64,000 nt of DNA from Natrarchaeobius oligotrophus (GCF_003841465.1 NZ_REFZ01000002.1:310001-374000); one strand, 5' to 3'. Counted from the stretch's first letter, positions 32,275 through 50,277 are shown. Numbers and translations: made by a program. The notes: generated by a model not told the origin, from the sequence alone.

Positions 32275-32555
32275 CGATGGCAATCATTCGAGGAACGATA
32301 CAAAAAACTACCCGAAAGTCACTCCGAACCGCGAGACCGTAGGGGCCGGTCGGCTGGCAGCCGTTCGCACGTCCGACGCGCTCGTTCGGGGTCTGTCCCG
32401 TCGATTCGGGTGGCGGAGATCCGAGCGAAGCGATCTCGAGACGATCGCGGCGACGCGCGCGTTGACGTCGAGGGTGGGGCGAAGACTCGAGCGCGCTGGT
32501 CTCGAGACGATCGGTATCGAAGCGTTGAGGAGGGCTCGAGCGCTCGCACGAAACG

Positions 32556-32828
32556 ATGTCGAACCAGCAATTCGATGAACTTCGGGCACGAGCCGCCGAC
32601 GCGATCACCGACGACGACCTCGCGTCGGTGTACGCCGGGCTCGTCCGAGAGGACGGTCACCACGAGTACTACTTCGGGAACGACACCGAGGAAGCGACGG
32701 AGCTCAGAGAGACGGCGGCGATTCAACTCGGAATGCTGCTGCGAGTGCTCGCCGATCGATCCGACAGGACCGTCGAGGAAATCGCCGACCTCGCGGTCGA
32801 ACGCGCCGAGGGGCTGGAGCTCCGGTGA
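32556..32828 (+). CDS. small acidic hypothetical protein
   Basis: This 90-residue mostly helical, acidic protein contains YAGLVREDGHHEYYFGND and a C-terminal amphipathic TAAIQLGMLLRVLADRSDRTVEEIADLAVERA. I recognise no family. It sits between the fdh pair (divergent) and the AOR-like gene (convergent), so it may belong to this redox cluster. It has haloarchaeal codon use and a normal ATG, so I regard it as real. Confidence 0.65.
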   Translation: MSNQQFDELRARAADAITDDDLASVYAGLVREDGHHEYYFGNDTEEATELRETAAIQLGMLLRVLADRSDRTVEEIADLAVERAEGLELR

Positions 32829-32870
32829 GCGGTCGAACGAGCTCACATTTTCGTAGCAGGCCGGACGCGC

Positions 32871-34676
32871 TCACTCGGAGCGATCGCCGGCCGCGGACGT
32901 CGAGTTCGGATCGGTCCCGGGGGAGCCAAGCGGCGTCCGGTCGTCGGCGACGTCGTCGAGTTCGAGTCGGGCGAGCGTCTCGGGGAGCGGTCGGCCGTTC
33001 GGCCCCCAGCCCCTGCTCGCGTAGTACCGGTCGAGCGCTCGCTCGAAATCGTCGGGGTCGATCGACGGTCCGCCCGCCGAAGGGGGGTCGCGAAAGACCG
33101 GCGGGAGGCTGTCGTCGCTCCTGTCGAATCCCTCCCGGACGTTGAACAGTCGAACGAGCGTCCAGACCCGCCTGCCGAGCCGGGAGAGATCGCTCGAGTC
33201 GTACTCCCGTTCGAGCGCGGCGAGCCACTCGGCACCCAGATCGTCGAGAACGTCCCCCACGAAGTCGTCCGTGGGCAGGCACCACAGCGCCGATCGAACG
33301 TCCTGAGCGGCGACGACGGCTCGCACCTGCGTTTCGAGCGTCCACTCCCCCTCGAACACCTCTCGCTCGAAGGGACGGGCTCGGCGGTGACAGCCCCCGC
33401 GGTCGCTCGTCGCGTACGCCAGCGCCATGCTTCCGGCCCGTCGCGGATCGTACGACGGGACGGCCATCGATTTGACGGTCGGGACGAACGCCTCGCCGCC
33501 GTACCGGTCGGCGGCGACGGAGACGCCGTCGGCCAGCGCGTCGGCGATCGGGCCGTCGCGCGTCGCGATCCGCTCGAGGAGCCCGACGGCCGCGTCGGCG
33601 TCGCCGAACGAGACGTCGAGATCGACGCATCCCGCGTCGGCGGCGCGAATCGCCCACGCGACGGCGTTCCCGGCGCCGATGACGTCCATCCCGAGTCGAT
33701 CGCAGACGGCCCCCAACGTCGCGACGTCGTCGAAGTCGTCGATACCGAGGCCGGCACCCAGCGTCATCGCGGTCGCGCCGCGGGGGACGGTGTCGCCGTC
33801 GTCGGTTTCGACGCGAAAGCCGCCGGGGTGGTCGTCGTCGGAATACTCGCGCTCGACGGCGGCCGCTTTCGCGGCTTCGACCCCGATCGCGTCGCTCCCG
33901 TCGAACGCCGTCTCCTGCCACCCTCGAGTCGCGAGCAGTCCGGTCTCGTCGGCGAAGTCGAGACTCTCTATCGTCGCTCCCGAGCGCAACCAGCGGCCGG
34001 TGTCGTGGTTTCGGTACGCTTCGGCGTACTCCCGACGGAGCTCCGCGAGCTCGCCGGTCGGACGGACCGGATCGCCGCGGACGACGACGGCTTTCAGGTT
34101 CTTCGCTCCCATGACTGCGCCCGCGCCCCCGCGACCGGCGTGGTGGTCGCCGCCGTCGGACGCGATCGACGCGTACCGGACCATCGCTTCGCCCGCCGGG
34201 CCGATACACGCCGTCGCAGCGTCGGGACACGACTCGGCGACCGTTTCGGTATCGGCACCGGCGAGGCCGTCGGCCGCGGTTATTTCGACGCTTCCCTCGT
34301 CGATTCGAACCGCGACCGGCGAGTCGGCGCGTCCCGTCACGAGAACGCCGAGACAGTCCGGGAGGGTACCCGCGAGGCGCGCGGGAAACCGGCCACCGGC
34401 GTAGGAATCGAGAAATCCGCCGGTGAGCGGTGACTTCGTCACCGCCGCGTATCGGGTTTCACCGGGGAGACAGCCCGAGAGCGGCCCGAGCATGAGACCG
34501 AGGAGGTTGTCGGGACCGAGCGGATTCGTCTCGGCCTCGAGTTCCTCGTACAGGTAACGGGCGCCGAGTCCCTTCCCCCCGAGGAACAGGCGACGCCACC
34601 GCTCCGGAACGCGGTCGCGACGAACGGACCGCGTCGAGAGGTCGATCCGGAGGACGTGATCGCGCGTCCGTGTCAC
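32871..34676 (-). CDS. aldehyde ferredoxin oxidoreductase-like protein without CxxCxxxC
   Basis: This 601-residue AOR-family protein has the N-terminal FLGGKGLGARYLYEEL, the LSGCLPGETRYAAVTKSPLTGG loop and GRGGAGAVMGAKNLKAVVV, all typical of the tungsto-bispterin binding domain. In AOR enzymes the [4Fe-4S] cluster is held by CxxCxxxC near residue 290 plus a distal Cys. Here that place reads YSDDDHPGGF without any Cys; only a later Cys (ALWCLPTDDF) matches the fourth ligand. So it probably lacks the cluster and may use another electron route or be catalytically changed. It stands alone on the minus strand beside the fdh pair. Confidence 0.82.
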   Translation of the reverse strand: MTRTRDHVLRIDLSTRSVRRDRVPERWRRLFLGGKGLGARYLYEELEAETNPLGPDNLLGLMLGPLSGCLPGETRYAAVTKSPLTGGFLDSYAGGRFPARLAGTLPDCLGVLVTGRADSPVAVRIDEGSVEITAADGLAGADTETVAESCPDAATACIGPAGEAMVRYASIASDGGDHHAGRGGAGAVMGAKNLKAVVVRGDPVRPTGELAELRREYAEAYRNHDTGRWLRSGATIESLDFADETGLLATRGWQETAFDGSDAIGVEAAKAAAVEREYSDDDHPGGFRVETDDGDTVPRGATAMTLGAGLGIDDFDDVATLGAVCDRLGMDVIGAGNAVAWAIRAADAGCVDLDVSFGDADAAVGLLERIATRDGPIADALADGVSVAADRYGGEAFVPTVKSMAVPSYDPRRAGSMALAYATSDRGGCHRRARPFEREVFEGEWTLETQVRAVVAAQDVRSALWCLPTDDFVGDVLDDLGAEWLAALEREYDSSDLSRLGRRVWTLVRLFNVREGFDRSDDSLPPVFRDPPSAGGPSIDPDDFERALDRYYASRGWGPNGRPLPETLARLELDDVADDRTPLGSPGTDPNSTSAAGDRSE

Positions 34677-35592: not shown

Positions 35593-36993
35593 TCACACGG
35601 CGGACGGTCGGATTCGGTCCAGGCGGGTTCGAACCGACCGCTTGACGGCCCGATAGTCGGGATCGGTTGCGCGGTTGTGTATCTCGGCGGGTCGGTCGTC
35701 GAGGTCGTACAGCACCTCACCCTGTCCGTCGGTAACCGCGTACTTGTAGCGCTTTCCTCGAACCATGAATATCGGGTGATCCGGATTGGCCCCGAAAGTG
35801 CTCTCATCCGTCAGATACTCCGCGTACACCGTCGAACGGTGGTCCGACCGTTCGCCGAAGAGAATCGGCGCGAACGACTGGCCGGGAGTCTCGGCCGGGA
35901 ACGAACAGCCAGCCAGTTCGGCCAGCGTCGGCGGAAGATCCGCGAGCGAAACGAGGCTATCGGTCTCGCCGGATTCGATCGACGGATGCGAGACGAGCAA
36001 CGGCACCCGGAGCACGTCGTCGTACATGAACGGCCCCTTCCAGAGGAGTCCGTGGTTGCCGAGCATCTCGCCGTGATCGGAGACGTAGACGACGACGGTA
36101 TCTTCGAACAGATTCCGATCGCAAAGCGCCTCGAGTAGGCGACCGAGCTGGGTGTCGATGTGGGTACAGAGGCCGTAGGTCAGCGCCCACGCCGCGCGGA
36201 GATCGTCCTCGGAAAACTCCTCGTAATCCGATCTGGCGACGGTCGCCGTCTCGAGGGAAGGCTTGTCCTCGAACGACTCGAGCGTGCGGCTCTCCGGAAG
36301 CTCGATGGCATCGGGGTCGTACATCCGGTCGTACGGCGCCGGCGGTGCGATCGGAAAGTGAGGGTAAAATCCCGACAGTTGCAGATAAAACGGCGACTCG
36401 TCGTCGTGCGAGTCGAGAAATTCGATCGCGCGATCGACGAGCCACGTCGTGAAGTGATGTTCCGCCGGAATCGCCGATCGGCCGACGGGCACCGAACTAT
36501 CGGGTACGTCCCGCCACGCGGTTTCGTCCGCGTCGGTGTCGACGACGCCTTCTCGCTTCAGGTAGCGGAGGTAATCGGGCTCTTCACCCGGCGGTACGTC
36601 GTGTTCGAGCGCCGTTGCCATCGAATCGAAGCCGGGCGGCGCGTCCCGCCAGAGCGTGCCGGTGTGGCGGTCGACCGGAACGCCGAGGTGCCACTTCCCG
36701 ATCAGTTCGGTTCGATACCCGACGTCGGCGAGCAGTTCCACGAACGTGGTGTTGTTCTCGGGGAGCGGAACGTCGTTTCCGTAGACGCCGTGTTCGTGGG
36801 GATACAAGCCGGTAAACATACTCGCGCGACTCGGCGAACACAGCGGGCTGGTCGCGAAAGCCGACGTGAACCGTCGTCCGTTCGACGCGAGTTCGTCGAT
36901 GGTTGGCGTGGCGGGAGCGCCACCGTAACAGCCCAACCCGTCCGGGCGCTGCTGATCGGGGTTGAACACCAGGATGTTCGGTCGGTCAGTCAT
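35593..36993 (-). CDS. cytoplasmic sulfatase, last gene of an ABC sugar-transporter operon
   Basis: The protein has 466 residues. The sulfatase signature CSPSRASMFTG has the formylglycine Cys at residue 52, and a second conserved motif is IGKWHLG. N-terminal metal ligands are in NILVFNPDQQ, and VSDHGEMLGNHGL carries the DHG metal-binding residues. No signal peptide is present, so the enzyme should act inside the cell after uptake. Its ATG at 36993 overlaps the end of the CarboxypepD_reg gene by eight bases, making it the last gene of the ABC sugar operon. I infer removal of sulfate from an imported sugar or oligosaccharide. The maturation enzyme is not visible. Confidence 0.92.
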   Translation of the reverse strand: MTDRPNILVFNPDQQRPDGLGCYGGAPATPTIDELASNGRRFTSAFATSPLCSPSRASMFTGLYPHEHGVYGNDVPLPENNTTFVELLADVGYRTELIGKWHLGVPVDRHTGTLWRDAPPGFDSMATALEHDVPPGEEPDYLRYLKREGVVDTDADETAWRDVPDSSVPVGRSAIPAEHHFTTWLVDRAIEFLDSHDDESPFYLQLSGFYPHFPIAPPAPYDRMYDPDAIELPESRTLESFEDKPSLETATVARSDYEEFSEDDLRAAWALTYGLCTHIDTQLGRLLEALCDRNLFEDTVVVYVSDHGEMLGNHGLLWKGPFMYDDVLRVPLLVSHPSIESGETDSLVSLADLPPTLAELAGCSFPAETPGQSFAPILFGERSDHRSTVYAEYLTDESTFGANPDHPIFMVRGKRYKYAVTDGQGEVLYDLDDRPAEIHNRATDPDYRAVKRSVRTRLDRIRPSAV

Positions 36994-37414
36994 CCGTGAT
37001 TTCGAGCTCTATTTCCACGTTCTGTCCCTCGAAGTAGAGGTGTTCGTGTCGCTCCTCGCTCGTGCCGAGATCGTCGTGGGACGCCTGAATTCGGAATTCG
37101 AGGAGGTCCGTCTGATCGGTGAACTCGAACTCACCGTTTGCATCCGTCGTGGTCGTTCGTTCCTGCTGGACGCTCTGTAAGTGGATCGGCCAGATGTGAA
37201 CCGTCGCATCCTCGACCGGTTCGCCGTCCGGACCGACGACCTGACCGGAAATGGTTCCGTCGTTGTTAGCATTCACGTAGATCATCGTGCCACCAGCGAG
37301 CACGAGTGTGACGACGAGCAGGATCGTGACGCGGTGCAACAGGAGACGCCGCAGCGTCAGCGTCCCGCCGACGAGCAATCCGATCTGCCTGATGGGTTCG
37401 GTTATGCGTTTCAT
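36986..37414 (-). CDS. membrane-anchored CarboxypepD_reg-like domain protein
   Basis: This 142-residue protein has one transmembrane helix at about residues 28-47 (TILLVVTLVLAGGTMIYV), then a beta-sandwich with the carboxypeptidase-regulatory-like pattern GTISGQVVGPDGEPVEDATV and TTDANGEFEF. The domain probably lies outside the membrane and could assist the binding protein or surface-sugar capture. It starts 6 nt after the MalG-type permease stop and overlaps the sulfatase start, so it is inside the operon. Its function in ABC importers is not established, as far as I know. Confidence 0.8.
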   Translation of the reverse strand: MKRITEPIRQIGLLVGGTLTLRRLLLHRVTILLVVTLVLAGGTMIYVNANNDGTISGQVVGPDGEPVEDATVHIWPIHLQSVQQERTTTTDANGEFEFTDQTDLLEFRIQASHDDLGTSEERHEHLYFEGQNVEIELEITDD

Positions 37415-37420
37415 GAGTGA

Positions 37421-38317
37421 TCACTCCTTGAGTGCGCTTTGGGCGATGCTTCGGATAAACTGGCGTTGCAACAGCAGGAACATGACGATGACGGGGAGCG
37501 TGATGAGGATCACGTACGCGTACTGGAGCGCGAACTCTCCGGCCAGCGTGCTCTGGAACTCAGCCAGCCCGAGCGGTAGCGGGCGGTTCGACGGTGAACT
37601 GATGACGACGAGCGGCCACATGTACTCGTTCCACATCCAGACGAACGAGAGGATCGCCGTCGTCGCGAGTGCGGGCCGCGACAGCGGCCAGAAGACCCCG
37701 AAGATGATGTACAGCTCGGATGCACCGTCCATCCTGGCCGAGTCGACGAGCGACTGCGGAACCGATCTGAAAGCGCTCGCCAGGATCAGGATGATGATCA
37801 CCGAGACCGTAAACGGGAGTGCGACTCCAAGTCGACTGTTCAACAGTCCGAGTTCTCTCGTGACGAGAAACGCCGGGATGATCGACGTCTGGAAGGGGAC
37901 GAGCATCGCCGCGACCAGAAGGATCTCGAGCCCGCGCTTGCCGTGGAAATCCCGCGTGAGCGAGTACGCGATGAACGAACACAACACGAGGTTTCCGACG
38001 ACCGCGATGATCGTGATTATCAGACTGTTCGCGAACAACACCAGAATATCGCTCTGGTACCAGACCGTAACGAAGTTGAAGATGGACGGATCCGTGATCA
38101 GGATCGACGGCTCCCTGCCGATCAGCGCCTGGGAGGTGAGCGCGATCATGATCAGCCAGTACAGCGGGAAGAAAAACGCGATCGCTGCGAGCAGACCCAG
38201 AAGGAACATTCCGAACTTGCGCAGTCGGTAGTTCCACCCGCTGTCCTGTCGGGGCTGAAGCGAATCGTAGATTCTGCGTGCGTCCGCAGTCGAAACGATT
38301 TCGTTGATTCTGCTCAT
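37421..38317 (-). CDS. ABC sugar transporter permease, MalG/LacG type
   Basis: The protein has 298 residues and six predicted transmembrane helices. The EAA-type ATPase-docking loop reads DSARMDGASELYIIFGVFWP near residue 195. It is the second permease of a carbohydrate ABC importer (CUT1 type). The ATG at 38317 overlaps the previous permease stop (ATGA), giving translational coupling; the longer frame to 38443 would overlap the neighbouring gene. Confidence 0.93.
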   Translation of the reverse strand: MSRINEIVSTADARRIYDSLQPRQDSGWNYRLRKFGMFLLGLLAAIAFFFPLYWLIMIALTSQALIGREPSILITDPSIFNFVTVWYQSDILVLFANSLIITIIAVVGNLVLCSFIAYSLTRDFHGKRGLEILLVAAMLVPFQTSIIPAFLVTRELGLLNSRLGVALPFTVSVIIILILASAFRSVPQSLVDSARMDGASELYIIFGVFWPLSRPALATTAILSFVWMWNEYMWPLVVISSPSNRPLPLGLAEFQSTLAGEFALQYAYVILITLPVIVMFLLLQRQFIRSIAQSALKE

Positions 38318-39231
38318 TCGAACGACCTCCGTTGCAGTTTCCAGCCAGCGAACACCATCAGGAGCACGACGACGTACATGACCATCGTCAAGACGGCCCC
38401 GTATCCGAACTCTCCGTAGGAGAACGCCTGCTTGTACATCCACGTCAGGAGGATTTCAGCACTGTGGTTCGGTCCGCCCTGTGGCATCATCACCATGATC
38501 AGATCGAACGCGCGATACGTAGTGACGATCCCGACGAGAAAGCACACGCCGATGGTCGGACGAAGCAGCGGGAGCGTGATGTGCCGAAAGCGCTGCCAGC
38601 GGCTCGCACCGTCGATGCGAGCGACCTCGTAGACCTGCGTCGGAATCATCTGAATCCCCGCGAGGAGGATGATCATGTAAAATCCGACCGTCTTCCAGAC
38701 CTGGACGATCAACACGGAGATGAGCGCCCATCGGGAACTGGACAGCCAGCGGATCGGATCGGAAACCAGTCCGGTTTGCAACAACAGGTAGTTGATCACC
38801 CCGGCATCCGTTTGGAACATGTACTGCCAGATAACGCCGATTCCGACCATCATGATGATGTACGGGAGAAATATCGCGGACCGAAACACGTTTCGCCCGG
38901 GGAATTTCTGGTTCAGGAGAATAGCGAGTCCGAGCGCAACGGCGATTCCCACCGGAATCGTCGCCATCAGCGCGAACGTGTTCGCCAGACTCCGCAGAAA
39001 CACCGGGTCGTGAAGCAAATTTCGATAGTTCGAGAGTCCAACGAACGTGAGTTCGCCGGTGTAACTCATCTCGTTGAACGACAGATAGAAGTTGTACAGG
39101 ATCGGGATAATTCGGTAGAGGACGATCACTGTAAGTGCCGGAAGCGCTGCGATCCAGGCGAGTATCGTGACCCGACCCTTTCTCGATAAATCGGGCCACT
39201 CTCGGTGCTTAAACGACTCTGTGATATTCAT
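38314..39231 (-). CDS. ABC sugar transporter permease, MalF/UgpA type
   Basis: This 305-residue inner-membrane protein has about six helices and the coupling loop EVARIDGASRWQRFRHITLP. It forms the heteromeric pore with the following MalG-type permease, which overlaps it by four bases. The solute-binding protein lies 119 nt upstream on the same strand. CUT1 importers of this type take up oligosaccharides, glycerol phosphates or similar compounds; the sulfatase at the end of the operon suggests a sulfated saccharide. Confidence 0.93.
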   Translation of the reverse strand: MNITESFKHREWPDLSRKGRVTILAWIAALPALTVIVLYRIIPILYNFYLSFNEMSYTGELTFVGLSNYRNLLHDPVFLRSLANTFALMATIPVGIAVALGLAILLNQKFPGRNVFRSAIFLPYIIMMVGIGVIWQYMFQTDAGVINYLLLQTGLVSDPIRWLSSSRWALISVLIVQVWKTVGFYMIILLAGIQMIPTQVYEVARIDGASRWQRFRHITLPLLRPTIGVCFLVGIVTTYRAFDLIMVMMPQGGPNHSAEILLTWMYKQAFSYGEFGYGAVLTMVMYVVVLLMVFAGWKLQRRSFE

Positions 39232-39350
39232 ATATCATGAGGACTGCTATCGACCTTCTTAATTGTTTTGCTATTCGAATTCGATCGGACCGATCCCGTC
39301 GCGTTACCGGACGTTCGCGTACGTCCGAGCGCGCGGTGTGCGTTTACGCG

Positions 39351-40685
39351 TTAGCCAGAGAGTGCATCGTTCACCCGGTCTTCCGCGTCGTCGAGAGCGT
39401 CTTCTGGCTCTTTCTCGCCGAGTGCGGCGTTCGAGACTTCGCTGTCGAGAATGTCGGCGATTTCGCTCGCTTCGGGAACGGACGGTGCCATGACGTAACC
39501 CTCCTCGAGTTCCGGCCAGAGGTCGTAGGCCATCGCGAGCAGCGGATTGTTCTCTCTGAACTCCTCGTCGTTCGAAAGCTCTTCCTGGACGTCGAGGTTT
39601 CCTGCCATTACGGTCGTGTTGCGGAGGAAGTCCTCCTGCCACTTGTCACTGAGAATCGAACGGATGAGATCCCACGCGGCCTCTCGCTCTGCTTCCGACG
39701 TGTTCGGTTCCGTGATACAGAGTCCGTTCGCCTCGTAATTGCCGCGGTTTCCGGGCGGGAGGGTGAGTTCCAGCGTTTCCTCGTCGATCCAGTCGCCGTA
39801 CCCCTGGACCCGTCGAACGTTGGAAAGCGGTGCGATGAACATCCCCGTATCGCCGGCACCGAACTGCTGTGCCTGTTCTTCGACGAAGCCGGTCCACGTG
39901 ACCTCGGGAATGACGCCGTCTTCGGTCAGTTCGTGGAAGCGTTCGAGAATCTCGGCAGCCCGGCTCGTGTTGAAGGCTGCGGCGTCGTCGGATTCGTTCA
40001 GGACGTCGATGCCCTCCGCCCAGAAGAACGGCCAGATTCGGTAGTCGAACGTCAGCGTCGTCAGCCCGTAGTCGGCATCGGACTCGTCGACGATGCGCTC
40101 GGCGGTGTCGAAGAACTCGTCGACCGAGTACGGGTACTCGTCGATTCCCGCCTCCTCGAACAGTTCCGTGTTGATGTACGTCGCACCCGCGTTCTGGTAG
40201 AACGGCATCCGGACGAGGTCGCCGTCGAACGTCGCGTATTCGAGTGACTCGTCTCCGAACTTACTCATGAAGTCGGACGACGCGTACTCCTCGAGGTCGA
40301 CGAAGATTCCCTCCTCGGCGAACCTGGTGAACGACATTCCGAGCGTGTCGAAGACGGTGACCGGGTCGTCCGTCTGGAGCTGTGACTGGTAGTACGACAA
40401 GATCTGGTCGTCCATCCGATCGACCCACTCGACGTCGGTGTCGGAGTAGTCCGCTTCGACGGGCGGCTCGGTGTTCTGGAAGTCGTCGATCCAGCCCTCG
40501 ATGGAGTCCTCGAGGAACTCGAGGTTCCACGTCAGGAGCGAAATCGATTCCGCACCACCTTCGCCGCCCGAGCCATCGTCGTCGTCGCCGAGACACCCGG
40601 CGGTGCCGACCGCACCGGCGGTCAGGGCTGCACTCAGTTTGGCGTACTGTCTCCGCGTCAGATTCGTTGGTGAGTCTTCTGTCAT
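39351..40685 (-). CDS. ABC sugar-binding lipoprotein (extracellular solute-binding family 1)
   Basis: The protein has 444 residues. It has a Tat-type lipoprotein signal: TRRQYAKLSAALTAGAVGTAGC with the lipobox Cys at residue 31, then an acidic Gly/Asp linker and a family 1 solute-binding fold (ISLLTWNLEFLEDSIEGW, GTANGRN-like NRGNYEANGLCI). The mature lipoprotein should be anchored outside the membrane. The ATG at 40685 was preferred to the upstream one at 40715 because it leaves a normal Tat n-region. It starts the operon, with the ABC ATPase divergent 223 nt upstream. Confidence 0.93.
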   Translation of the reverse strand: MTEDSPTNLTRRQYAKLSAALTAGAVGTAGCLGDDDDGSGGEGGAESISLLTWNLEFLEDSIEGWIDDFQNTEPPVEADYSDTDVEWVDRMDDQILSYYQSQLQTDDPVTVFDTLGMSFTRFAEEGIFVDLEEYASSDFMSKFGDESLEYATFDGDLVRMPFYQNAGATYINTELFEEAGIDEYPYSVDEFFDTAERIVDESDADYGLTTLTFDYRIWPFFWAEGIDVLNESDDAAAFNTSRAAEILERFHELTEDGVIPEVTWTGFVEEQAQQFGAGDTGMFIAPLSNVRRVQGYGDWIDEETLELTLPPGNRGNYEANGLCITEPNTSEAEREAAWDLIRSILSDKWQEDFLRNTTVMAGNLDVQEELSNDEEFRENNPLLAMAYDLWPELEEGYVMAPSVPEASEIADILDSEVSNAALGEKEPEDALDDAEDRVNDALSG

Positions 40686-40908: not shown

Positions 40909-42048
40909 ATGGCCTCGATTAGCTTGGAAAACGTCACGAAAATATTTTCGGGCGACGTCGTCGCGGTCGACGACGTCAGTCTCGAGATATCCGACGGCGA
41001 GTTCGTCGTTCTGGTCGGACCGTCCGGGAGCGGAAAGTCGACGATCCTTCGGATGATCTCCGGGCTCGAAGTCCCGACGGACGGAACGATCAAACTCGAC
41101 GACGAAGACATCACCACTGCCAAACCGAAGGAACGAGATCTCGGAATGGTGTTCCAGAACTACGCGCTGTATCCCCACCTCAGCGCTCGCGAAAACATCT
41201 CGTTCGGGTTGCGGATGCGCGGCGGATACAGCGACGAAGAGATCGACGAACGCGTCACCGAGGCCGCGGAGATGATGAGCATGACCGACTACCTGGATCA
41301 CCGACCGAACGAACTGTCGGGGGGACAGAAACAGCGCGTGGCGCTGGGGCGGGCGCTCGTTCGCGATTCGAAGGCGTTTCTCATGGACGAGCCGCTTTCG
41401 AACCTCGACGCGAAACTCCGGACGCAGATGCGCACGGAGATCCAGCAACTCCAGCAGCGTCTCGACATGACGACGATTTACGTCACTCACGACCAGACCG
41501 AGGCGATGACGATGGGGGATCGAATCGCGATTTTGAACCACGGCGAGCTGCAGCAGTTCGGAACGCCGATCGAAGCGTACTATCGACCGAACAACGTGTT
41601 CGTCGCCGGATTCATCGGGAGTCCGTCGATGAACTTCATCGACGTCTCCGTCGATCACTCCGGCGACGGGACTAGCATCTCCCATCAGAAGTTCGAGTGG
41701 GAGGTGCCAGATCACATCGCCGATTCGATTCCGTCCGACGAGACGAACGCGACGCTCGGCGTCCGTCCCGAGGATCTGACCGTCAACGACGGCGACGATC
41801 CACAGATCCCCGTCACCGTCGACGTCGTCGAACCCCTCGGAAAGGAGCAGTTGCTCCACTTTTCGCTCGGAAACGAGATGCACATCGCGAGCATCACCGA
41901 ACACGTACTGGTGTCCGAAGGCGACGAGATCCGAATCGGCTTCGATCCGGAGGACGTCCACCTGTTCGACGCCGAGACGGGGACCGTGATGAAACAGCGC
42001 GAATCGATTCCCGAGGAAGAGCCGGCGGTCACGCCCCACGGCGAATAA
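40909..42048 (+). CDS. ABC transporter ATPase, MalK/UgpC type
   Basis: This 379-residue protein has Walker A GPSGSGKST, the Q-loop NYALYPHL, the signature LSGGQKQR, Walker B AFLMDEPLS, the D-loop NLDAKL and the switch His in YVTHDQTEA, followed by a C-terminal OB/TOBE regulatory domain of about 130 residues. It energises CUT1-type sugar importers. It is divergent from the binding-protein gene and is very probably its ATPase, since no other is encoded in the operon. Confidence 0.95.
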   Translation: MASISLENVTKIFSGDVVAVDDVSLEISDGEFVVLVGPSGSGKSTILRMISGLEVPTDGTIKLDDEDITTAKPKERDLGMVFQNYALYPHLSARENISFGLRMRGGYSDEEIDERVTEAAEMMSMTDYLDHRPNELSGGQKQRVALGRALVRDSKAFLMDEPLSNLDAKLRTQMRTEIQQLQQRLDMTTIYVTHDQTEAMTMGDRIAILNHGELQQFGTPIEAYYRPNNVFVAGFIGSPSMNFIDVSVDHSGDGTSISHQKFEWEVPDHIADSIPSDETNATLGVRPEDLTVNDGDDPQIPVTVDVVEPLGKEQLLHFSLGNEMHIASITEHVLVSEGDEIRIGFDPEDVHLFDAETGTVMKQRESIPEEEPAVTPHGE

Positions 42049-42297
42049 CGCCGAACCCGCATCGATCCGTTTCTATTTCCTGACGCTTCGAAGCTGACCA
42101 CCGTCCCGGATGTTCGGTAGCTCACATTCGAGCGGCCATAGCCTGCGATACCGGACGCGAAAAACGCCGATTCGTTGGCTGCCAGGGCGGCGAACACGGT
42201 CGAACCCCGACGGCCGATTCCCGCGTTCTCGAGCGAACGGCGAGCGCTCGGCGATGCGCACGGAGTCGTCGGTCAGAACCAGACGTTCGGTTTGAGA

Positions 42298-42310
42298 GGG
42301 TCAAAATATC
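42298..42310. promoter_or_regulatory. GGGTCAAAATATC element before the second iclR
   Basis: A GGTCAAA-type element lies immediately upstream of the iclR TATA box. The same core recurs at about 43,262, 43,446 (inverse) and 43,561. It may be an autoregulatory site; this is inference. Confidence 0.3.
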
Positions 42311-42312
42311 GG

Positions 42313-42321
42313 AAAATATAT
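42313..42321 (+). promoter_or_regulatory. TATA box for the second IclR regulator
   Basis: AAAATATAT is centred about 31 nt before the ATG at 42349, supporting that start over the longer frame at 42175. Confidence 0.55.
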
Positions 42322-42348
42322 GTAGGTGTCGTGCCGAGTACGTCGGCT

Positions 42349-43143
42349 ATGGAGAACGCCAGTGACGCTGGACGGCAGATTCAGTCCGTCGCCCGGTCGA
42401 TAGAGATACTGTTGCTCCTGCGAAAACACGACGGTGCGACGATCACGGATCTGGCGAGCGAAGTCGATCTGACGCCGGGAACCGTCCACACGCATCTATC
42501 GACGCTCAGAGAGTGTGGGCTCGTCGTCAGGGAACCGAAGGGGCAGTACAGCCTGAGCCTGGAGTTCATCACGATGGGAGAGCACGTCCGAAACGGCTCC
42601 GCGCTGTTCAAAGCGGGTCGCGAGATCGTCGACAAACTGTCGATGATGAGCGGCGAGACGGTCCACCTGATCACCGAGAACAACGGTGCGGAAGTGATCC
42701 TGTGGGAAGCGTTCGGTCAGAACGCCGTGGGAACGGAGTTCTACATCTACAACCGGGAGCGACCAAACCGACACCTCCACTACTCGGCGTCGGGCAAAGC
42801 GATGCTCGCGTACCTGGATCCGAATCGCGTCGACGAAATTGTCGACGAGCAGGGATTGATCCGACAGACGCCCCAGACGATTACGGACCGCCAAGAGCTC
42901 GACCGACAGCTGCAGACGATTCGCGACCGCGGATTCGCCCTGAACGACGAGGAGGGCGTGTCGGGAATCAGGGCCGTGGGAGCGCCGATTTTCGATCCGA
43001 ACGGCGACGTCATCGGCGCGATCAGCCTGTCGGCACCGGCGGCAAAGATGTCGGACGATCTCTTTCGAGAGACGGTCCCGGATATCATTATTCAGTCGGC
43101 GAATCTCATCGAAGTCAACCTGCAGGGAGTGCTCATCGAGTAA
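42349..43143 (+). CDS. IclR family transcriptional regulator
   Basis: The protein has 264 residues. The N-terminal wHTH reads GATITDLASEVDLTPGTVHTHLSTL, and the C-terminal effector domain ends GIRAVGAPIFDPNGDVIGAISLSAP. The domain binds a small metabolite. It lies between the ABC ATPase and the enolase-superfamily dehydratase, so it probably controls the sugar island. The start is set by the TATA box 31 nt upstream. Confidence 0.93.
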   Translation: MENASDAGRQIQSVARSIEILLLLRKHDGATITDLASEVDLTPGTVHTHLSTLRECGLVVREPKGQYSLSLEFITMGEHVRNGSALFKAGREIVDKLSMMSGETVHLITENNGAEVILWEAFGQNAVGTEFYIYNRERPNRHLHYSASGKAMLAYLDPNRVDEIVDEQGLIRQTPQTITDRQELDRQLQTIRDRGFALNDEEGVSGIRAVGAPIFDPNGDVIGAISLSAPAAKMSDDLFRETVPDIIIQSANLIEVNLQGVLIE

Positions 43144-43587: not shown

Positions 43588-44754
43588 TTACTCGTCGATT
43601 CGATACCTGTCGACCGTCGAGTGATCGACGGTGATTCCCAGTCCCGGGTCCGTTGGCACGCGAATCCGGCCGTTCGAAAGCTCGAGTGGCTCCGCGAGCA
43701 CGTCGTCTTCCCAACTGTAGTAGACGGTATCAGGCGGGAGAACGAATCCCGGGATTCCGGCGACCGCGTGGACGATAGCCGCCGTTCGAACGCCGAGATC
43801 GAACGCGCAGTGGTGGGTCACCGGAACGCCGGCTTCTTCGGCGATCGCCGCCTGATGGCGTAAGCCGGCGATACCTCCCGCCGGGGTGAGATCGAGAATC
43901 GCGACGTCGAGGGCATCCGCCTGGATCAATCGGAGGAGGTTGTGGGCGATGTAGGTATCCTCGTTCGGCCCGATCGGCTGGGAGGTGCGAGCGCGCAGCG
44001 CGGCGAGCGAGCCGTGTGCGTTGACTCGAATCGGCTGTTCGAGATACTGCAGGTAAATTCCCGCATCGTCGAGCATCGCGGCGACGCGGGTGGCCTGATC
44101 GAGCGTCCAACCCTGATTCGGATCGAGGCGGAACTCGAGCGAGCCGTCGACCGCGTCGTGCATCGCCACGATTCGCTCGACATCGCGTCGCCAGTTCCGA
44201 CCGGCTTTGGTTTTCAAGACGGTGTAGCCGCGGTCCGCGACCGCTTTTGCACGGTCGGCGGACTCCTCGGGCGAGAGAATCCCGAGGCAGTAGGCGAACT
44301 CGACGGACCGACCGTCTCGGCGTTCGTCCTGGTGATTTCGGTGGCGGCGAGTCGTCTGATGGGGGGCGGTCCAGCCACCGAGGAGTTCGTATATCGGCTT
44401 CCCGGTAGCCTTCCCGACGATGTCCCAACAGGCTAGTTCGATCGGCGCGAAAAACATGTCCGGATTGGCGTATTCGATGAACAACTGCCGCCTGAGGCGC
44501 TCGATCTCGAACGGGGATTGGCCGACGACCATGGGGGCGATGCCGTCCTCGATCACTGACACCGTCGCCTCGGGAGAGAGAAACACCCGGACTTCGCCCC
44601 AGCCGGAGATGCCTTCGTCGGTGTCGACGCGAACGAGCACCCGATCCATGTCGTCGAGCGAATTGTGGTTCGTCACGTACGGCGCGATTCCATCGTCCTC
44701 GAGCGGTTTGAGCGGGATAGTAACCGGTATCGCTTCGATTGCTGTGATCCGCAT
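43588..44754 (-). CDS. enolase-superfamily (mandelate racemase/muconate lactonizing) sugar-acid dehydratase-like protein
   Basis: This 388-residue protein is an enolase-superfamily member. The N-terminal capping domain contains TPI-like ITAIEAIPVTIPLKP and VDTDEGISGWGE. The barrel has the KxK general base in VLKTKAG, the metal ligands Asp in RLDPNQGW, Glu in QYLEQPI and Glu in GPNEDTYI, and a distal HHCAFDLG. The family covers sugar-acid dehydratases, muconate cycloisomerases and racemases. Next to an ABC sugar importer, KDG kinase and KDPG aldolase, a sugar-acid dehydratase making a 2-keto-3-deoxy acid is most likely. An extended charged loop (about residues 128-148) is unusual. Confidence 0.82.
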   Translation of the reverse strand: MRITAIEAIPVTIPLKPLEDDGIAPYVTNHNSLDDMDRVLVRVDTDEGISGWGEVRVFLSPEATVSVIEDGIAPMVVGQSPFEIERLRRQLFIEYANPDMFFAPIELACWDIVGKATGKPIYELLGGWTAPHQTTRRHRNHQDERRDGRSVEFAYCLGILSPEESADRAKAVADRGYTVLKTKAGRNWRRDVERIVAMHDAVDGSLEFRLDPNQGWTLDQATRVAAMLDDAGIYLQYLEQPIRVNAHGSLAALRARTSQPIGPNEDTYIAHNLLRLIQADALDVAILDLTPAGGIAGLRHQAAIAEEAGVPVTHHCAFDLGVRTAAIVHAVAGIPGFVLPPDTVYYSWEDDVLAEPLELSNGRIRVPTDPGLGITVDHSTVDRYRIDE

Positions 44755-44775
44755 ACCGTACTGTATGAACATCGA

Positions 44776-44901: not shown

Positions 44902-44924
44902 TCTTGGTCGGTGTGAAGATCGCT

Positions 44925-45722
44925 ATGTATTACGAAGCAGTGCACGGGTCGACGGTCTCGTGGGCGACGAAGCCGTACGCGGAGATCAACTCGATCGGCG
45001 AACGGAGCGGGTCGGTGCTGTTCGTTCCGATCGGAAGCATCGAACAGCACGGTCACCACCTTCCGGTTTCGACCGACACGCTCCTGGTCGATGCGGTGAC
45101 GAGTGCGGCCGCAGAGCAGGCGGACGCGGAGGGGATTCCCGCGCTCGTAACGCCGACGCTCTGGTCCGGCTTCTCGCCCCACCACATGCCGTTCGGAGGA
45201 ACGATCACGTTGAGCCACGACGATTTGCTCGATACGATCGAAGACGTCGCGGACTCGGCGCTCGAAGTCGGATTCGATACGCTCTGTCTCGTCAACGGTC
45301 ACGGCGGCAACGCTGCACTCGTCAGCTGTGCCGTCAGCACCATCGGAGACGACCACCCCGACGTCGAGGTCATCGGAACGACCTACTTCGATCTCGCTGC
45401 CCCGTTCGTCGACGACGTACGCGAGAGCGAACGCGGGGGCATGGTCCACGGAGGCGAGTTCGAAACCTCGCTGATGTTGCATCTGTATCCCGAACTGGTC
45501 GACCAAGAACGTCTCGAGGCCGAGCCCCTCGTCGAGCCGTACGACCACGGATTGAAGGACATGTTCGACGGGGGACCGTTGACCGTCTACCGCGAGTTCG
45601 ACGAGTACTCCGAAACGGGAGCGATCGGCGAGCCGGAGCTCGCAACGGCGGCCAAAGGCGAGCAGTTGTTCGAGAATCTGTGCGACGAACTGGTTACGAT
45701 CGCACGTCAAACGCAGTCGTGA
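44925..45722 (+). CDS. creatininase family protein
   Basis: The protein has 265 residues. It carries the creatininase metal-site pattern: Glu and His in IGSIEQHGHHLP, the following Asp in STDTLL, NGHGGN and the later metal-binding Glu in HGGEFET. Family members hydrolyse cyclic amides (creatinine, mycofactocin-type or ring-opening reactions) or related C-N bonds with Zn/Mn. In this island it could open a lactam- or lactone-like ring, but no substrate can be fixed. It is divergent from the dehydratase gene with a shared 170-nt promoter region. Confidence 0.88.
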   Translation: MYYEAVHGSTVSWATKPYAEINSIGERSGSVLFVPIGSIEQHGHHLPVSTDTLLVDAVTSAAAEQADAEGIPALVTPTLWSGFSPHHMPFGGTITLSHDDLLDTIEDVADSALEVGFDTLCLVNGHGGNAALVSCAVSTIGDDHPDVEVIGTTYFDLAAPFVDDVRESERGGMVHGGEFETSLMLHLYPELVDQERLEAEPLVEPYDHGLKDMFDGGPLTVYREFDEYSETGAIGEPELATAAKGEQLFENLCDELVTIARQTQS

Positions 45723-45860: not shown

Positions 45861-46691
45861 ATGGACGTGAACGCTTTACACGGAGACACGGCGATCGTAA
45901 CCGGCGGAAGCTCCGGAATCGGCCGATCGATCGCGACCCGGTTCGCGGACGAAGGGGCAACCGTCGTGATCGCCGACGTCGACCAGGATGGTGGAGAAAA
46001 GACGGTCGAGCTGATCGAGGAGTCGGGGAACGACGCGACGTTCGTCCCGACGGACGTGACCGACGAGTCGCACGTCTCGTCGCTCGTCGAAACCGTCGAG
46101 ACGCGGTACGGGGGCGCCGACGTCCTCGTGAACAACGCCGGCGGTGCGACCACGTACGATCGGATCGACGAGATCGATCCGGAAACGTGGCGACTCGATC
46201 TCGAGCGGAATCTCACGGGCACGTTCCTGTGTACGCGCGCCGTGTTATCGGGGATGGTCGACCGTCGGTCGGGCAGCATCGTCCACATGTCGTCGATCAA
46301 CGGGCTAACCGGAATCGGGCTGCCTGCCTACACGGCCGCGAAAAGCGGGATACTCGGATTTTCTCGGTTAGTCGCCACACAGTACGGAGTTCACGGGATT
46401 CGCTCGAACGCGATCTGTCCGGGAACGATCGTCACGGAACAGCGGAAAGCCGAGATGGAAGAACACGGCGGCGAAACGGCAAGAGAGGTCTGGCTCGACC
46501 AGTACGCTCTCGAGCGGCTGGGCGAGCCTGACGACGTGGCCGACGCCGCCGTCTTCCTCGCCTCGGATCGCTCTTCGTTCGTGACCGGAACCGAAATCGT
46601 CGTCGACGGCGGGTTGCTCGCTGGCGTCGACCTGCGGGTCCAGCGCTCGATCTACGGGATCGACGACCTCAAAAATCGCGGCGGCGAGTAA
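45861..46691 (+). CDS. short-chain dehydrogenase/reductase
   Basis: This 276-residue classical SDR has the cofactor motif [16 protein letters not shown], a catalytic Ser in HMSSINGL and the YxxxK pair in AYTAAKSG. An Asp at the end of strand 2 (VIADVD) suggests NAD(H) preference. In a sugar-acid pathway it could be the sugar dehydrogenase that makes the lactone. It follows the creatininase-family gene by 138 nt on the same strand. Confidence 0.9.
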
Positions 46692-46792: not shown

Positions 46793-47176
46793 TCAGTCGT
46801 CGTCGTACTCGGCTACGACGTCAATCTCGACGGCGATCTCGATCGGGAGTTTCGACACCTCGACGGCCGTCCGAGCCGGGTACGGCGACGTGAAGTGCTC
46901 CGCGTAGGCCTCGTTGACCGCCTCGTAGTCGTTCATATCGGTGAGGTAGACGGTCGTCTTGACGACGTCGTCGAGTCCGACGCCGGCTTCGGAAAGAATT
47001 CGCTCGACGTTCTCGAGCGTCGCGTGGGTCTGAGCGCCGGCGTCGGAGCCGAGTACGTCGCCGCTGTCGGGATCGACCGGCCCCTGGCCGGAGACGTACA
47101 TTCGATCGCCGGAGATGGTCGCTTGCGAGTACGGTCCGATCGGTTCTGGTGCGTCGTCTGTCAGTAGTTCCCGCAT
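46793..47176 (-). CDS. ridA: RidA (YjgF/YER057c/UK114) family protein
   Basis: The protein has 127 residues. It shows the RidA pattern PIGPYSQATISGDRMYVSGQGPVDP and the conserved Arg in SPYPARTAVEVSKLP that binds the imine/enamine carboxylate. RidA proteins hydrolyse reactive 2-aminoacrylate and related enamines. It sits between the SDR (convergent) and KDG kinase (divergent). The ATG at 47176 gives the usual family length; the longer reading to 47314 does not. Confidence 0.9.
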   Translation of the reverse strand: MRELLTDDAPEPIGPYSQATISGDRMYVSGQGPVDPDSGDVLGSDAGAQTHATLENVERILSEAGVGLDDVVKTTVYLTDMNDYEAVNEAYAEHFTSPYPARTAVEVSKLPIEIAVEIDVVAEYDDD

Positions 47177-47334
47177 ACACCGTTGGTGGGTGTCGGGCCG
47201 ACAAAACTGTACCGTTTTTCGATAGATCGTCCGAGACCGACCGTTCCGGAATTCGACGACGAGCGGGCGGTGAACGGCCGGTCCGACTGTGACGATCGCT
47301 CTCACTGACGGCACTCGGGACGGGGAGAGCGAAG

Positions 47335-47342
47335 AATTATAT
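47335..47342 (+). promoter_or_regulatory. TATA box for the KDG kinase gene
   Basis: AATTATAT is centred about 29 nt before the ATG at 47368, which supports this start rather than the ATG at 47341, which overlaps the box. Confidence 0.55.
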
Positions 47343-47367
47343 GGGCGAGTTCGAAACAGACGACCGT

Positions 47368-48327
47368 ATGCCGACCCTAGTCACGTTCGGCGAAACGATG
47401 CTTCGCCTCGCCCCGCCGACCGGCGAGCGAATCGAGACGGCGACCCAGTTGGACTTCAAAACGGCGGGTGCCGAAAGCAACGTCGCCATCGCGGCATCGA
47501 ATCTCGGCGTCGATTCGACGTGGATCTCGAAACTGCCGGATTCGCCGCTCGGGAGGCGAGTAACGCGAGAACTCCGAAGCCACGGCGTCGAACCGGCCGT
47601 CACCTGGACCGAGGACGGACGACAGGGTGCCTACTACATCGAACGCGGGGGCGATCCACGGGGAACGAACGTCATCTACGACCGGACGGACGCCGCGATC
47701 AGAACGACGACGACGGAGGAAGTGACCGGGGCAGTCGACCTCGAAACGACGGACGCCGTCTACACGAGCGGAATCACCCCCGCGCTCTCCTCGAGATTGC
47801 GAGAGACCACCGCCTCGTTCCTCGAGCAGGCCGGACGAGCCGGCGCGACGACGGTCTTCGATCTCAACTATCGGTCGAAGCTGTGGTCGCCGTCCGAAGC
47901 CCGGTCGTGTTGTACCTCCCTTCTCGAGTCCGTCGACGTCGCCGTGATCGCAGCGCGTGACGCACGGACCGTCCTCGATCGAACCGGAAGCGACGAGGAG
48001 ATCGTCCGCGAACTCGCGTCGACCGGCGATCCGGCCGTCGTCGTCCTCACTCGCGGCGCGGACGGGGCGATGGCGGTCGATCGGGACGGACGACTCCACG
48101 ACCAGCCGGCGGTGGCAGCCGAAACGACGGATCCGATCGGCACGGGCGACGCGTTCGTCGGCGGGTTTCTGGCGAGCTACCTCGACGACCGGGACGTCGC
48201 GAGCGCGCTCGCGTACGGTTCGGCGACCGCGGCGCTGAAACGCACCATCGACGGGGACCTCGCGATCGTCACCCCCGAGGAGGTCCGGGCCGTCCTCGAG
48301 AACGACGGCGGCGGGATCACGCGGTGA
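47368..48327 (+). CDS. PfkB-family sugar kinase, 2-keto-3-deoxygluconate kinase-like
   Basis: This 319-residue PfkB/ribokinase-family protein starts LVTFGETMLRLAPP, with GGAESN-like AGAESNVAIAASNLG. The ATP-binding/catalytic motif is DPIGTGDAFVGGFLASYL, whose Asp is the general base. KDG kinases of haloarchaea have this kind of N-terminus. With the KDPG aldolase at 48.4 kb it suggests phosphorylation of a 2-keto-3-deoxy sugar acid and cleavage to pyruvate and glyceraldehyde 3-phosphate. The two genes are convergent. Confidence 0.85.
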   Translation: MPTLVTFGETMLRLAPPTGERIETATQLDFKTAGAESNVAIAASNLGVDSTWISKLPDSPLGRRVTRELRSHGVEPAVTWTEDGRQGAYYIERGGDPRGTNVIYDRTDAAIRTTTTEEVTGAVDLETTDAVYTSGITPALSSRLRETTASFLEQAGRAGATTVFDLNYRSKLWSPSEARSCCTSLLESVDVAVIAARDARTVLDRTGSDEEIVRELASTGDPAVVVLTRGADGAMAVDRDGRLHDQPAVAAETTDPIGTGDAFVGGFLASYLDDRDVASALAYGSATAALKRTIDGDLAIVTPEEVRAVLENDGGGITR

Positions 48328-48436: not shown

Positions 48437-49090
48437 TCAGTCCGACCGAACGGAGCTGACAGCGTCGACGAACTCGGCGGCAGTCTCGCGTATCCGATCC
48501 GGATCGTCGCGATCGACGGCGTCGTAATCCACGATCGAACTCCCCACGCCCACCGCGACGGCGCCGGCGTCGAAGAACGCACCGACGTTTTCGGTCGAGA
48601 TGCCTCCGGTCGGAACGACGTCGACGTCGCCAAGCGGCCCCCGTATCGCGCCGACGTGGTCCGGACCGACCGTCGTCGCCGGAAACAGTTTCAGCATGTC
48701 AGCACCCGCTTCGAGCGCGGTGACGGCGTCGGTCGGCGAAAGAACGCCGGGAATCGAGACGACGCCGTGTCGGTTGCAGGTTCGGATCACGTCCGGATTG
48801 CAGTCGGGTGCCAGAACGAACGTCGCTCCCGCGTCGATGACCGTCCGCGCCGAGGACGGATCGAGAACCGTCCCTGCACCGACGACCACATCGGTGTCGG
48901 CCAGTTCGCGATCGACTGCCGCGATCTTTTCCCGAACCCGGGTTCCGTCGGCCGTCACTTCGATCGCACCGACGCCCGCCTCGTGGATGGCACGGGCGAC
49001 GGATCCGATTCGATCCTCGTCGATACCGCGTAGAATCGCGATGACGCCGCTGTCGACGATCCGCTCTCTCACCTGGTTCGACTCGACCAT
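48437..49090 (-). CDS. eda: KDPG (2-dehydro-3-deoxy-phosphogluconate) aldolase
   Basis: The protein has 217 residues and is a class I aldolase of the KDPG/KHG type. It has GVIAILRG, a Glu in GAIEVTAD, VGAGTVLD and the Schiff-base Lys in MLKLFPATTVG, followed by PTGGIS. It cleaves KDPG, or the D-galacto equivalent, to pyruvate and glyceraldehyde 3-phosphate. The ATG at 49090 is preferred to a TTG further upstream. It is convergent with the KDG kinase gene. Confidence 0.9.
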   Translation of the reverse strand: MVESNQVRERIVDSGVIAILRGIDEDRIGSVARAIHEAGVGAIEVTADGTRVREKIAAVDRELADTDVVVGAGTVLDPSSARTVIDAGATFVLAPDCNPDVIRTCNRHGVVSIPGVLSPTDAVTALEAGADMLKLFPATTVGPDHVGAIRGPLGDVDVVPTGGISTENVGAFFDAGAVAVGVGSSIVDYDAVDRDDPDRIRETAAEFVDAVSSVRSD

Positions 49091-49245
49091 ACGCTCGGTT
49101 GGCAAATCAGCACCTTAAACGTGAAGGGTTCGACGCGGACGGCGTCCGCCGCATTCGATCGGGAACTGGGTAGCGACCGGTCCGAGAGCCGAGAGTCAAC
49201 CAGAGAGAGCGGCGAGGCGTGATCGGGCGGTGGACGGACCCACCG

Positions 49246-50277
49246 TTACGACCGGGCGACGATTTCGATACAAACCGGCTGCGGAACCGAGAGTCGGCCA
49301 CCCGTCGGCGCGAGCCTACCGTCGTCGTCGACGGCGAAAAAGACGATCGTATCGGAGTGTTCGTTCGCCACGAACAGGTGGTCGCCCGTCGGTGAGAGCG
49401 CGAAGTTCCGCGGCCACTCACCCGCCGTCGAGACGGTCTCGAGGAGCGTGAGCTCCTCATCCGAGCACTCGAGGACGGCGATACTGTCGTGACCTCGGTT
49501 CGATGCGTACACGTGCTCGCCGGACGGGTGGACGTGGACGTCGGCGGGAAAGTTCTCGCCTTCGCCGCCCTCACGCGTTTCGATCGTTTGGACGATTTCC
49601 AGTTCGCCGGCGTCTGGAGACCAGTCGAAGACGGACATCGTCGAATCCAGTTCGTTGACGAGGTAGGCCCGACCGCGACCGCGGTCAAACTCGAGGTGAC
49701 GGGGCCCAGCGCCGTCGTGGACGGAAACGACGTCGTATCGCTCGAGCGTTCCGGCGTCGGGATCGAGCGAGTAGACGAGCACCTCGTCCGTTCCGAGGTC
49801 GGGGACGTACGCGTACTCGTCGTTCGGACCGGGAACGATAGCGTGTGGATGCGGTTCGGTCTGGCGCTCCGGATGGACGCTCGAACCCTCGTGTTCGACG
49901 ACGGTCGGTTCGTCGAGACGGCCGTCGTCGGTGAGCGAAAGGACCGACACGGCTCCGCCGCTGTAGTGAGCCACCAGAAGCGCTGACCCCGTCGAATCGA
50001 CGCTACAGTAGCAGGGATCCGCCGGTCCGATCGTCAGCTCGTCCAGACGGTCGAGTTCGCCGTCGTCGCGGATTTCGAACGCGGTGACGGAGCCGTCGTC
50101 CACCTCATTCACCGCGTACAACACGTCGAGGTGGGGATGTGCGGCGACGAACGACGGATTCTCGACCGTCGCCGCCAGTCGACTATCTATCATCTCACCA
50201 TCTATGAGTTTACAGTGATAGATTCCGTCACCGGTATCGTCGGTGTACGTTCCGACGTACGTCTGATAATTGACCAT
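49246..50277 (-). CDS. lactonase family beta-propeller protein (6-phosphogluconolactonase YbhE-like)
   Basis: This 343-residue protein is a seven-bladed beta-propeller of the YbhE/CMLE lactonase family. It begins YQTYVGTYTDDTGDGIYH and contains repeated ENPSFVAAHPHLDVLYAVNE, PHAIVPGPNDEYAYVPDLGTD and RNFALSPTGDHLFVANEHSD blades. Family members hydrolyse phosphogluconolactone or other sugar lactones. In this island it may open the lactone made by the SDR. It is followed at its start by a long apparently empty region. Confidence 0.9.
   Translation of the reverse strand: MVNYQTYVGTYTDDTGDGIYHCKLIDGEMIDSRLAATVENPSFVAAHPHLDVLYAVNEVDDGSVTAFEIRDDGELDRLDELTIGPADPCYCSVDSTGSALLVAHYSGGAVSVLSLTDDGRLDEPTVVEHEGSSVHPERQTEPHPHAIVPGPNDEYAYVPDLGTDEVLVYSLDPDAGTLERYDVVSVHDGAGPRHLEFDRGRGRAYLVNELDSTMSVFDWSPDAGELEIVQTIETREGGEGENFPADVHVHPSGEHVYASNRGHDSIAVLECSDEELTLLETVSTAGEWPRNFALSPTGDHLFVANEHSDTIVFFAVDDDGRLAPTGGRLSVPQPVCIEIVARS

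Follow-up and report, generated by a model that had tools for sequence, protein, structure and literature searches.

Can a haloarchaeon take up a sulfated sugar whole and remove the sulfate inside the cell, and what would then activate the sulfatase? The question is raised by an operon on the minus strand (35593-40685) of the window, by which we mean the whole 64,000-nucleotide stretch of Natrarchaeobius oligotrophus DNA that was analysed (GCF_003841465.1 NZ_REFZ01000002.1:310001-374000). A sequence-only reading had described five genes joined by short overlaps, and had proposed that sulfated saccharides are imported intact and desulfated in the cytoplasm.

The importer operon and its relatives

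All five genes are indeed there, co-directional and in the order binding protein (SBP), permease, permease, CarboxypepD_reg protein and sulfatase (Table 1); the operon is real and coherent. The sulfatase gene overlaps that of the CarboxypepD_reg protein by 8 bp and the permease genes overlap each other by 4 bp, with gaps of 6 bp between the CarboxypepD_reg and permease genes and of 119 bp between the SBP and permease genes. An in-frame stop five codons upstream of the sulfatase ATG bears out the claim that this enzyme has no signal peptide. Omitted from the sequence-only reading were the divergent ATPase gene and a block of sugar-acid genes.

Table 1. Genes of the importer operon, its divergent neighbours and the adjoining sugar-acid block (positions in the window)
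Feature	Position	Strand	Remarks
Type I sulfatase (PF00884 + SGSH_C), no signal peptide	35593..36993	-	last operon gene; motif C52-S-P-S-R56
Small membrane-anchored protein, CarboxypepD_reg beta-sandwich	36986..37414	-	142 residues; one N-terminal TM segment; PF13620 39 bits
ABC permease 2, GlcU/UgpE-like	37421..38317	-	PF00528; start MSRINEI at 38317
ABC permease 1, UgpA/GlcT-like	38314..39231	-	PF00528
Tat-exported lipoprotein SBP, family 1	39351..40685	-	N-terminus 'TRRQYAK...AGC'; SBP_bac_8 81 bits
MalK/UgpC-type ATPase (ABC_tran + OB_MalK + TOBE_2)	40909..42048	+	divergent from operon; NF008653 451 bits, cut-off 432
IclR-type regulator	42175..43143	+	follows ATPase gene
Enolase-superfamily (MR-type) probable sugar-acid dehydratase	43588..44772	-	orthologs beside same importer in L101, L100
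Creatininase-family hydrolase	44904..45722	+	adjoins dehydratase in most neighbourhoods read
SDR dehydrogenase, glucose-1-dehydrogenase-like	45861..46691	+	NF005559 232 bits, cut-off 215
RidA-family enamine/imine deaminase	46793..47314	-	52% ortholog in L100
Haloarchaeal KDG/KDGal kinase	47341..48327	+	NF041332 464 bits, cut-off 440
KDPG/KHG aldolase	48437..49105	-	TIGR01182 173 bits, cut-off 156
7-bladed beta-propeller lactonase, 6-phosphogluconolactonase-like	49246..50277	-	not found in L100 or L101

The transporter has the sequence features of the CUT1 type, namely a family 1 SBP lipoprotein, two PF00528 permeases and a MalK-like ATPase with OB/TOBE domains. In these components it resembles MalEFGK, UgpABCE and archaeal GlcSTUV, but it departs from the CUT1 norm in possessing an extra membrane-anchored CarboxypepD_reg protein and in the divergent position of its ATPase gene. 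The SBP profile picks up sugar-binding proteins of solved structure (maltose/acarbose, arabino-oligosaccharide, UgpB and SmoF); judging by these relatives and by the neighbouring genes, a sugar is the plausible ligand. Close relatives of the CarboxypepD_reg protein (44–46% identity) were found only beside this transporter type, at locus L100 of genome G194 and locus L101 of genome G106. Therefore, this protein is probably an exofacial accessory subunit of the importer.

Among the 293 genomes of the order, relatives of the SBP at E≤1e-30 are present in only two others, again G194 and G106. Both loci keep the SBP-permease-permease-CarboxypepD_reg order and also carry the ATPase, dehydratase, creatininase and IclR genes. 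Identities to the L101 and L100 proteins are 45% for the SBP, 56–59% for permease 1, 42–49% for permease 2 and 61–62% for the ATPase; recurrence of the transporter gene order in two other haloarchaea at 42–59% identity argues that the arrangement is not due to chance. Dehydratase orthologs lie beside the matching importer (66% identity in L101, 47% in L100), the creatininase-family orthologs are 56–58% identical, and L100 additionally possesses orthologs of the SDR (57%) and RidA (52%) proteins. No sulfatase was found at the importer modules of L100 and L101. It follows that the conserved core consists of the importer and the sugar-acid enzymes, with the sulfatase as an add-on outside it, and that by its ancestry the importer has no specificity for sulfate. 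This sulfatase is missing from the congeners as well, and the SBP was shown to be missing from two. Nor did L100 and L101 yield the kinase, aldolase or lactonase, which may be general housekeeping copies.

Both homologous importer operons contain a gene for an F420-dependent LLM oxidoreductase (L100:14022-15032 and L101:8444-9430), which in L101 occupies the position taken by the sulfatase in N. oligotrophus. A role for this luciferase-like gene as a sulfoquinovose-type desulfonating monooxygenase was considered and rejected, its nearest affinity being with F420-dependent glucose-6-phosphate dehydrogenases.

The sugar-acid block

In its alignment the dehydratase shows a K-x-K motif and what looks like a D...H pair, the pattern of the mandelate-racemase subgroup, to which many acid-sugar dehydratases belong. 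The enzyme is widespread, with matches at E≤1e-60 in 72 of the 293 genomes, usually adjoining a creatininase gene. In three further genomes (G092, G206 and G166) PF00884 sulfatase genes occur no more than about 20 kb from those of the dehydratase and SDR, with or without a creatininase gene; coupling of this pathway to sulfatases therefore recurs, with different sulfatases. The presence of SDR, lactonase, kinase and aldolase genes beside that of the dehydratase suggests, as the simplest route, conversion of a sugar through its lactone, acid and 2-keto-3-deoxy acid to the phosphate. Such a sugar-acid scheme gives the RidA and creatininase-family proteins no part, so that a nitrogenous or cyclic substrate is conceivable; RidA in particular hints at a nitrogenous one. 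For the creatininase-family protein a Thermotoga IolN-type inositol route was considered, but the match reached only 72 of 245 bits.

Two more modules are present in the same genome (L130, G000:C2:424000-443999, and L131, G000:C4:262000-281999). Their dehydratases are 68–70% identical to that of the window, and they also carry creatininase, IclR and ABC genes; no match to the operon's sulfatase was found in them.

The sulfatase and its maturation

The sulfatase combines the PF00884 fold (162 bits, cut-off 25; SGSH_C 71 bits) with the C/S-x-P-x-R motif and the conserved metal-binding and catalytic residues of type I (formylglycine) sulfatases. Its catalytic set is complete (D13, Q14, C52, P54, R56, K100, H102, H212, D306, H307 and K319) and identical to that of its nearest relatives in G209, G204, G271, G013 and G156. 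Sulfate-ester hydrolysis is its predicted activity. No specific NCBIfam sulfatase model is matched above its cut-off, and in the tree the protein groups with canonical C-x-P-x-R sulfatases, on a long branch and with weak support. A genome-contig search with it as query gave a single weak haloarchaeal match, all others being distant bacterial sulfatases. The closest relatives (40–45% identity) are all from genomes bearing the formylglycine-generating enzyme (FGE), whose gene is often within 10 kb; they reside in multi-sulfatase clusters, one of which includes GH51-type arabinofuranosidases and another an ABC importer.

The sequence-only reading had staked itself on a maturation enzyme being encoded elsewhere in the genome, and on this point the result went against it: neither FGE nor anSME was found, although the genome is 99.4% complete. 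Profile searches of the draft, which comprises 69 contigs, yielded no PF03781 match for FGE, and the sole match to the anSME model TIGR03942 was L009, at 28.8 of 349 bits. L009 was rejected as an anSME, being a TIGR04347 pseudo-SAM/SPASM heme-type protein (717 bits). The positive controls in other haloarchaea scored about 280 bits for FGE and 453–485 bits for anSME (G271 and G013), so that the profiles readily pick up both enzymes where they occur. An FGE gene on an unassembled piece of the draft is possible but, because of the 99.4% completeness, not likely, and FGE was likewise not found in two congeners. The operon sulfatase is thus either unmatured, weakly active or matured by a route other than FGE and anSME. 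In E. coli too, neither FGE nor anSME explains the maturation of Cys-type sulfatases, and another maturase is suspected (PMC6189696, citing Benjdia et al. 2007).

FGE is present in 33 of the 293 genomes of the order and in one of the 63 genomes of the family to which the window belongs. A match to C-x-P-x-R was recorded in 30 of the 33 genomes with FGE, as against 66 of the other 260 (Fisher p = 2e-13, uncorrected for kinship; genome counts read by hand). The comparison relies on a long version of the DNA pattern that gave almost no control matches, a shorter one having matched no more often than the reversed control. The haloarchaeon G271 possesses both maturation systems: a single contig (G271:C25:102823-128795) carries FGE, an anSME of full length (485 bits) and several matches to C-x-P-x-R.

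Two further groups of haloarchaeal sulfatases make the maturation gap more than local. In a large sister clade, supported at 100/100, the motif reads C-x-S-A-R, its proline lost but the Cys kept; of its 25 rows 24 come from FGE-less genomes, and the two members checked retain every other catalytic residue. In another clade C-x-P-A-R alternates with S-I-P-A-R: the Ser form (SIPAR; L123, L137 and L138) occurs in G166, G156 and G171, and the Cys form (L122 and L129) in G092 and G206; the anSME search was negative for G166, G156, G171 and G092. It is possible, if on balance doubtful, that haloarchaea run working type I sulfatases in the absence of FGE and anSME, by means of a third maturation system or by direct use of Cys (or Ser). 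The operon sulfatase, the C-x-S-A-R clade and the Cys/Ser-alternating clade would all be examples. Members of the C-x-S-A-R clade, such as L004, L020 and their relatives (G000:C19:15734-17161), are widespread in haloarchaea.

The same evidence bears on whether the sulfatase works at all. It might have been acquired with or after the module and never matured, in which case it would be idle or very slow in this strain and the importer would serve a non-sulfated sugar. We consider this unlikely: the missing FGE and anSME, the confinement of the closest relatives to FGE genomes, often with FGE close by, and the sulfatase-free modules and congeners are all consistent with an idle enzyme, but it has an unbroken reading frame and a full set of catalytic residues, it is tightly coupled in the operon, the genome also retains a second intact Cys-type sulfatase (L001, motif CVPAR), and unmodified Cys sulfatases can turn over, as choline sulfatase does, slowly (PMC6189696).

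The window contains another sulfatase-like gene (116-1468; motif CSPSRGSLMTG). It was rejected as a partner sulfatase since L replaces K100 and E replaces D306, so that it is no typical sulfatase. Near-identical motifs are found in many FGE-less genomes of the family.

Predicted route and comparison with known systems

Import followed by cytoplasmic desulfation is, plausibly, the best reading of the locus. The part of the earlier proposal that stands is the adjacency of a CUT1-like importer, an intact sulfatase without signal peptide and a sugar-acid pathway, and the neighbours that had gone uncited plausibly strengthen it; against it count the lack of FGE and anSME in the genome and the sulfatase-free state of the importer elsewhere. 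We would give a slightly better than even chance to the locus being a sugar uptake and catabolism module with an added cytoplasmic sulfatase, through which a sulfated sugar would be imported and then desulfated inside. The Tat-exported binding lipoprotein would pass a small sulfated sugar or sugar derivative to the two-permease importer, driven by the divergent MalK-type ATPase, and the cytoplasmic sulfatase would first take off the ester sulfate. The freed sugar would be oxidised by the SDR dehydrogenase, the lactone opened by the lactonase or the creatininase-family hydrolase, and the sugar acid turned, by loss of water on the enolase-superfamily enzyme, into a 2-keto-3-deoxy acid, which the KDG/KDGal kinase would phosphorylate and the aldolase would split into pyruvate and glyceraldehyde-3-phosphate, the whole pathway being under control of the IclR regulator. 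The sequence itself shows the gene identities, the operon structure, the cytoplasmic location and intact catalytic residues of the sulfatase, and the conserved company of importer, dehydratase and creatininase; a sulfated sugar as the substrate, the order of the steps and activity of the sulfatase without a known maturation enzyme are inferred. In Bifidobacterium breve, the ats clusters reportedly provide for import of N-acetylglucosamine-6-sulfate and its desulfation in the cytoplasm, with an anSME maturase encoded alongside; the predicted route in N. oligotrophus is alike in both respects, but no maturase was found in its genome.

Less likely still than an idle sulfatase is the possibility that the enzyme is a formylglycine-type phosphodiesterase or phosphonate monoester hydrolase, or that the sulfate ester it cleaves is a choline-sulfate-like compound and no sugar. 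Among the best solved-structure matches are a choline sulfatase and members of the multifunctional sulfatase/PMH group (4upi, 7oz8, 2vqr and 2w8s), but a carrageenan sulfatase also ranks near the top, and the matches to the choline-sulfatase (TIGR03417, 220 bits against a cut-off of 433) and PehA (188 of 900 bits) models fall far short of their cut-offs. The sugar-acid catabolism neighbourhood and the MalK/UgpC-type ATPase also argue for a sugar. The choline sulfatase BetC of Ensifer meliloti, a distant match, is likewise a type I enzyme with C-x-P-x-R, but its substrate is choline sulfate and a putative FGE is present in that species (PMC6189696).

That the route of import and internal desulfation is little described in haloarchaea, as the sequence-only reading had it, holds only in part: a proposal made for haloarchaea in 2026 (PMC13260240) has chondroitin-sulfate disaccharides enter by an ABC or PTS system and a sulfatase act during their breakdown. 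Those glycosaminoglycan loci share with ours the import of a sulfated saccharide, a sulfatase in its breakdown and Entner-Doudoroff-type enzymes downstream; they differ in carrying GAG lyase, GH88 and GH154, none of which is among the window proteins scanned. In N. oligotrophus the importer operon ends with the sulfatase gene. Maturation is not mentioned in PMC13260240, the word 'formylglycine' being absent from its text. That the importer takes a larger sulfated oligosaccharide and the operon is a fragment of a polysaccharide-utilisation locus seems very improbable. No glycoside hydrolase or polysaccharide lyase domain was found among the window proteins scanned; the chondroitin sulfate proposal (PMC13260240), the multi-sulfatase loci with glycoside hydrolases in which sulfatase relatives lie and the oligosaccharides commonly carried by CUT1 importers would fit it.

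The mismatch between an intact sulfatase and a missing maturase is the most interesting part of the locus. With one ABC importer, one cytoplasmic sulfatase and catabolic genes nearby, uptake of whole sulfated sugars is open to test by single-gene deletions in an archaeon, and the maturation of Cys-type sulfatases becomes a matter of comparison across haloarchaea that have FGE, anSME or neither and closely comparable sulfatases. Elsewhere in the window, adjacent minus-strand genes (27428-34676) for a NuoG/molybdopterin oxidoreductase, a NuoF-like protein and an aldehyde:ferredoxin oxidoreductase suggest a multi-subunit aldehyde- or formate-oxidising complex.
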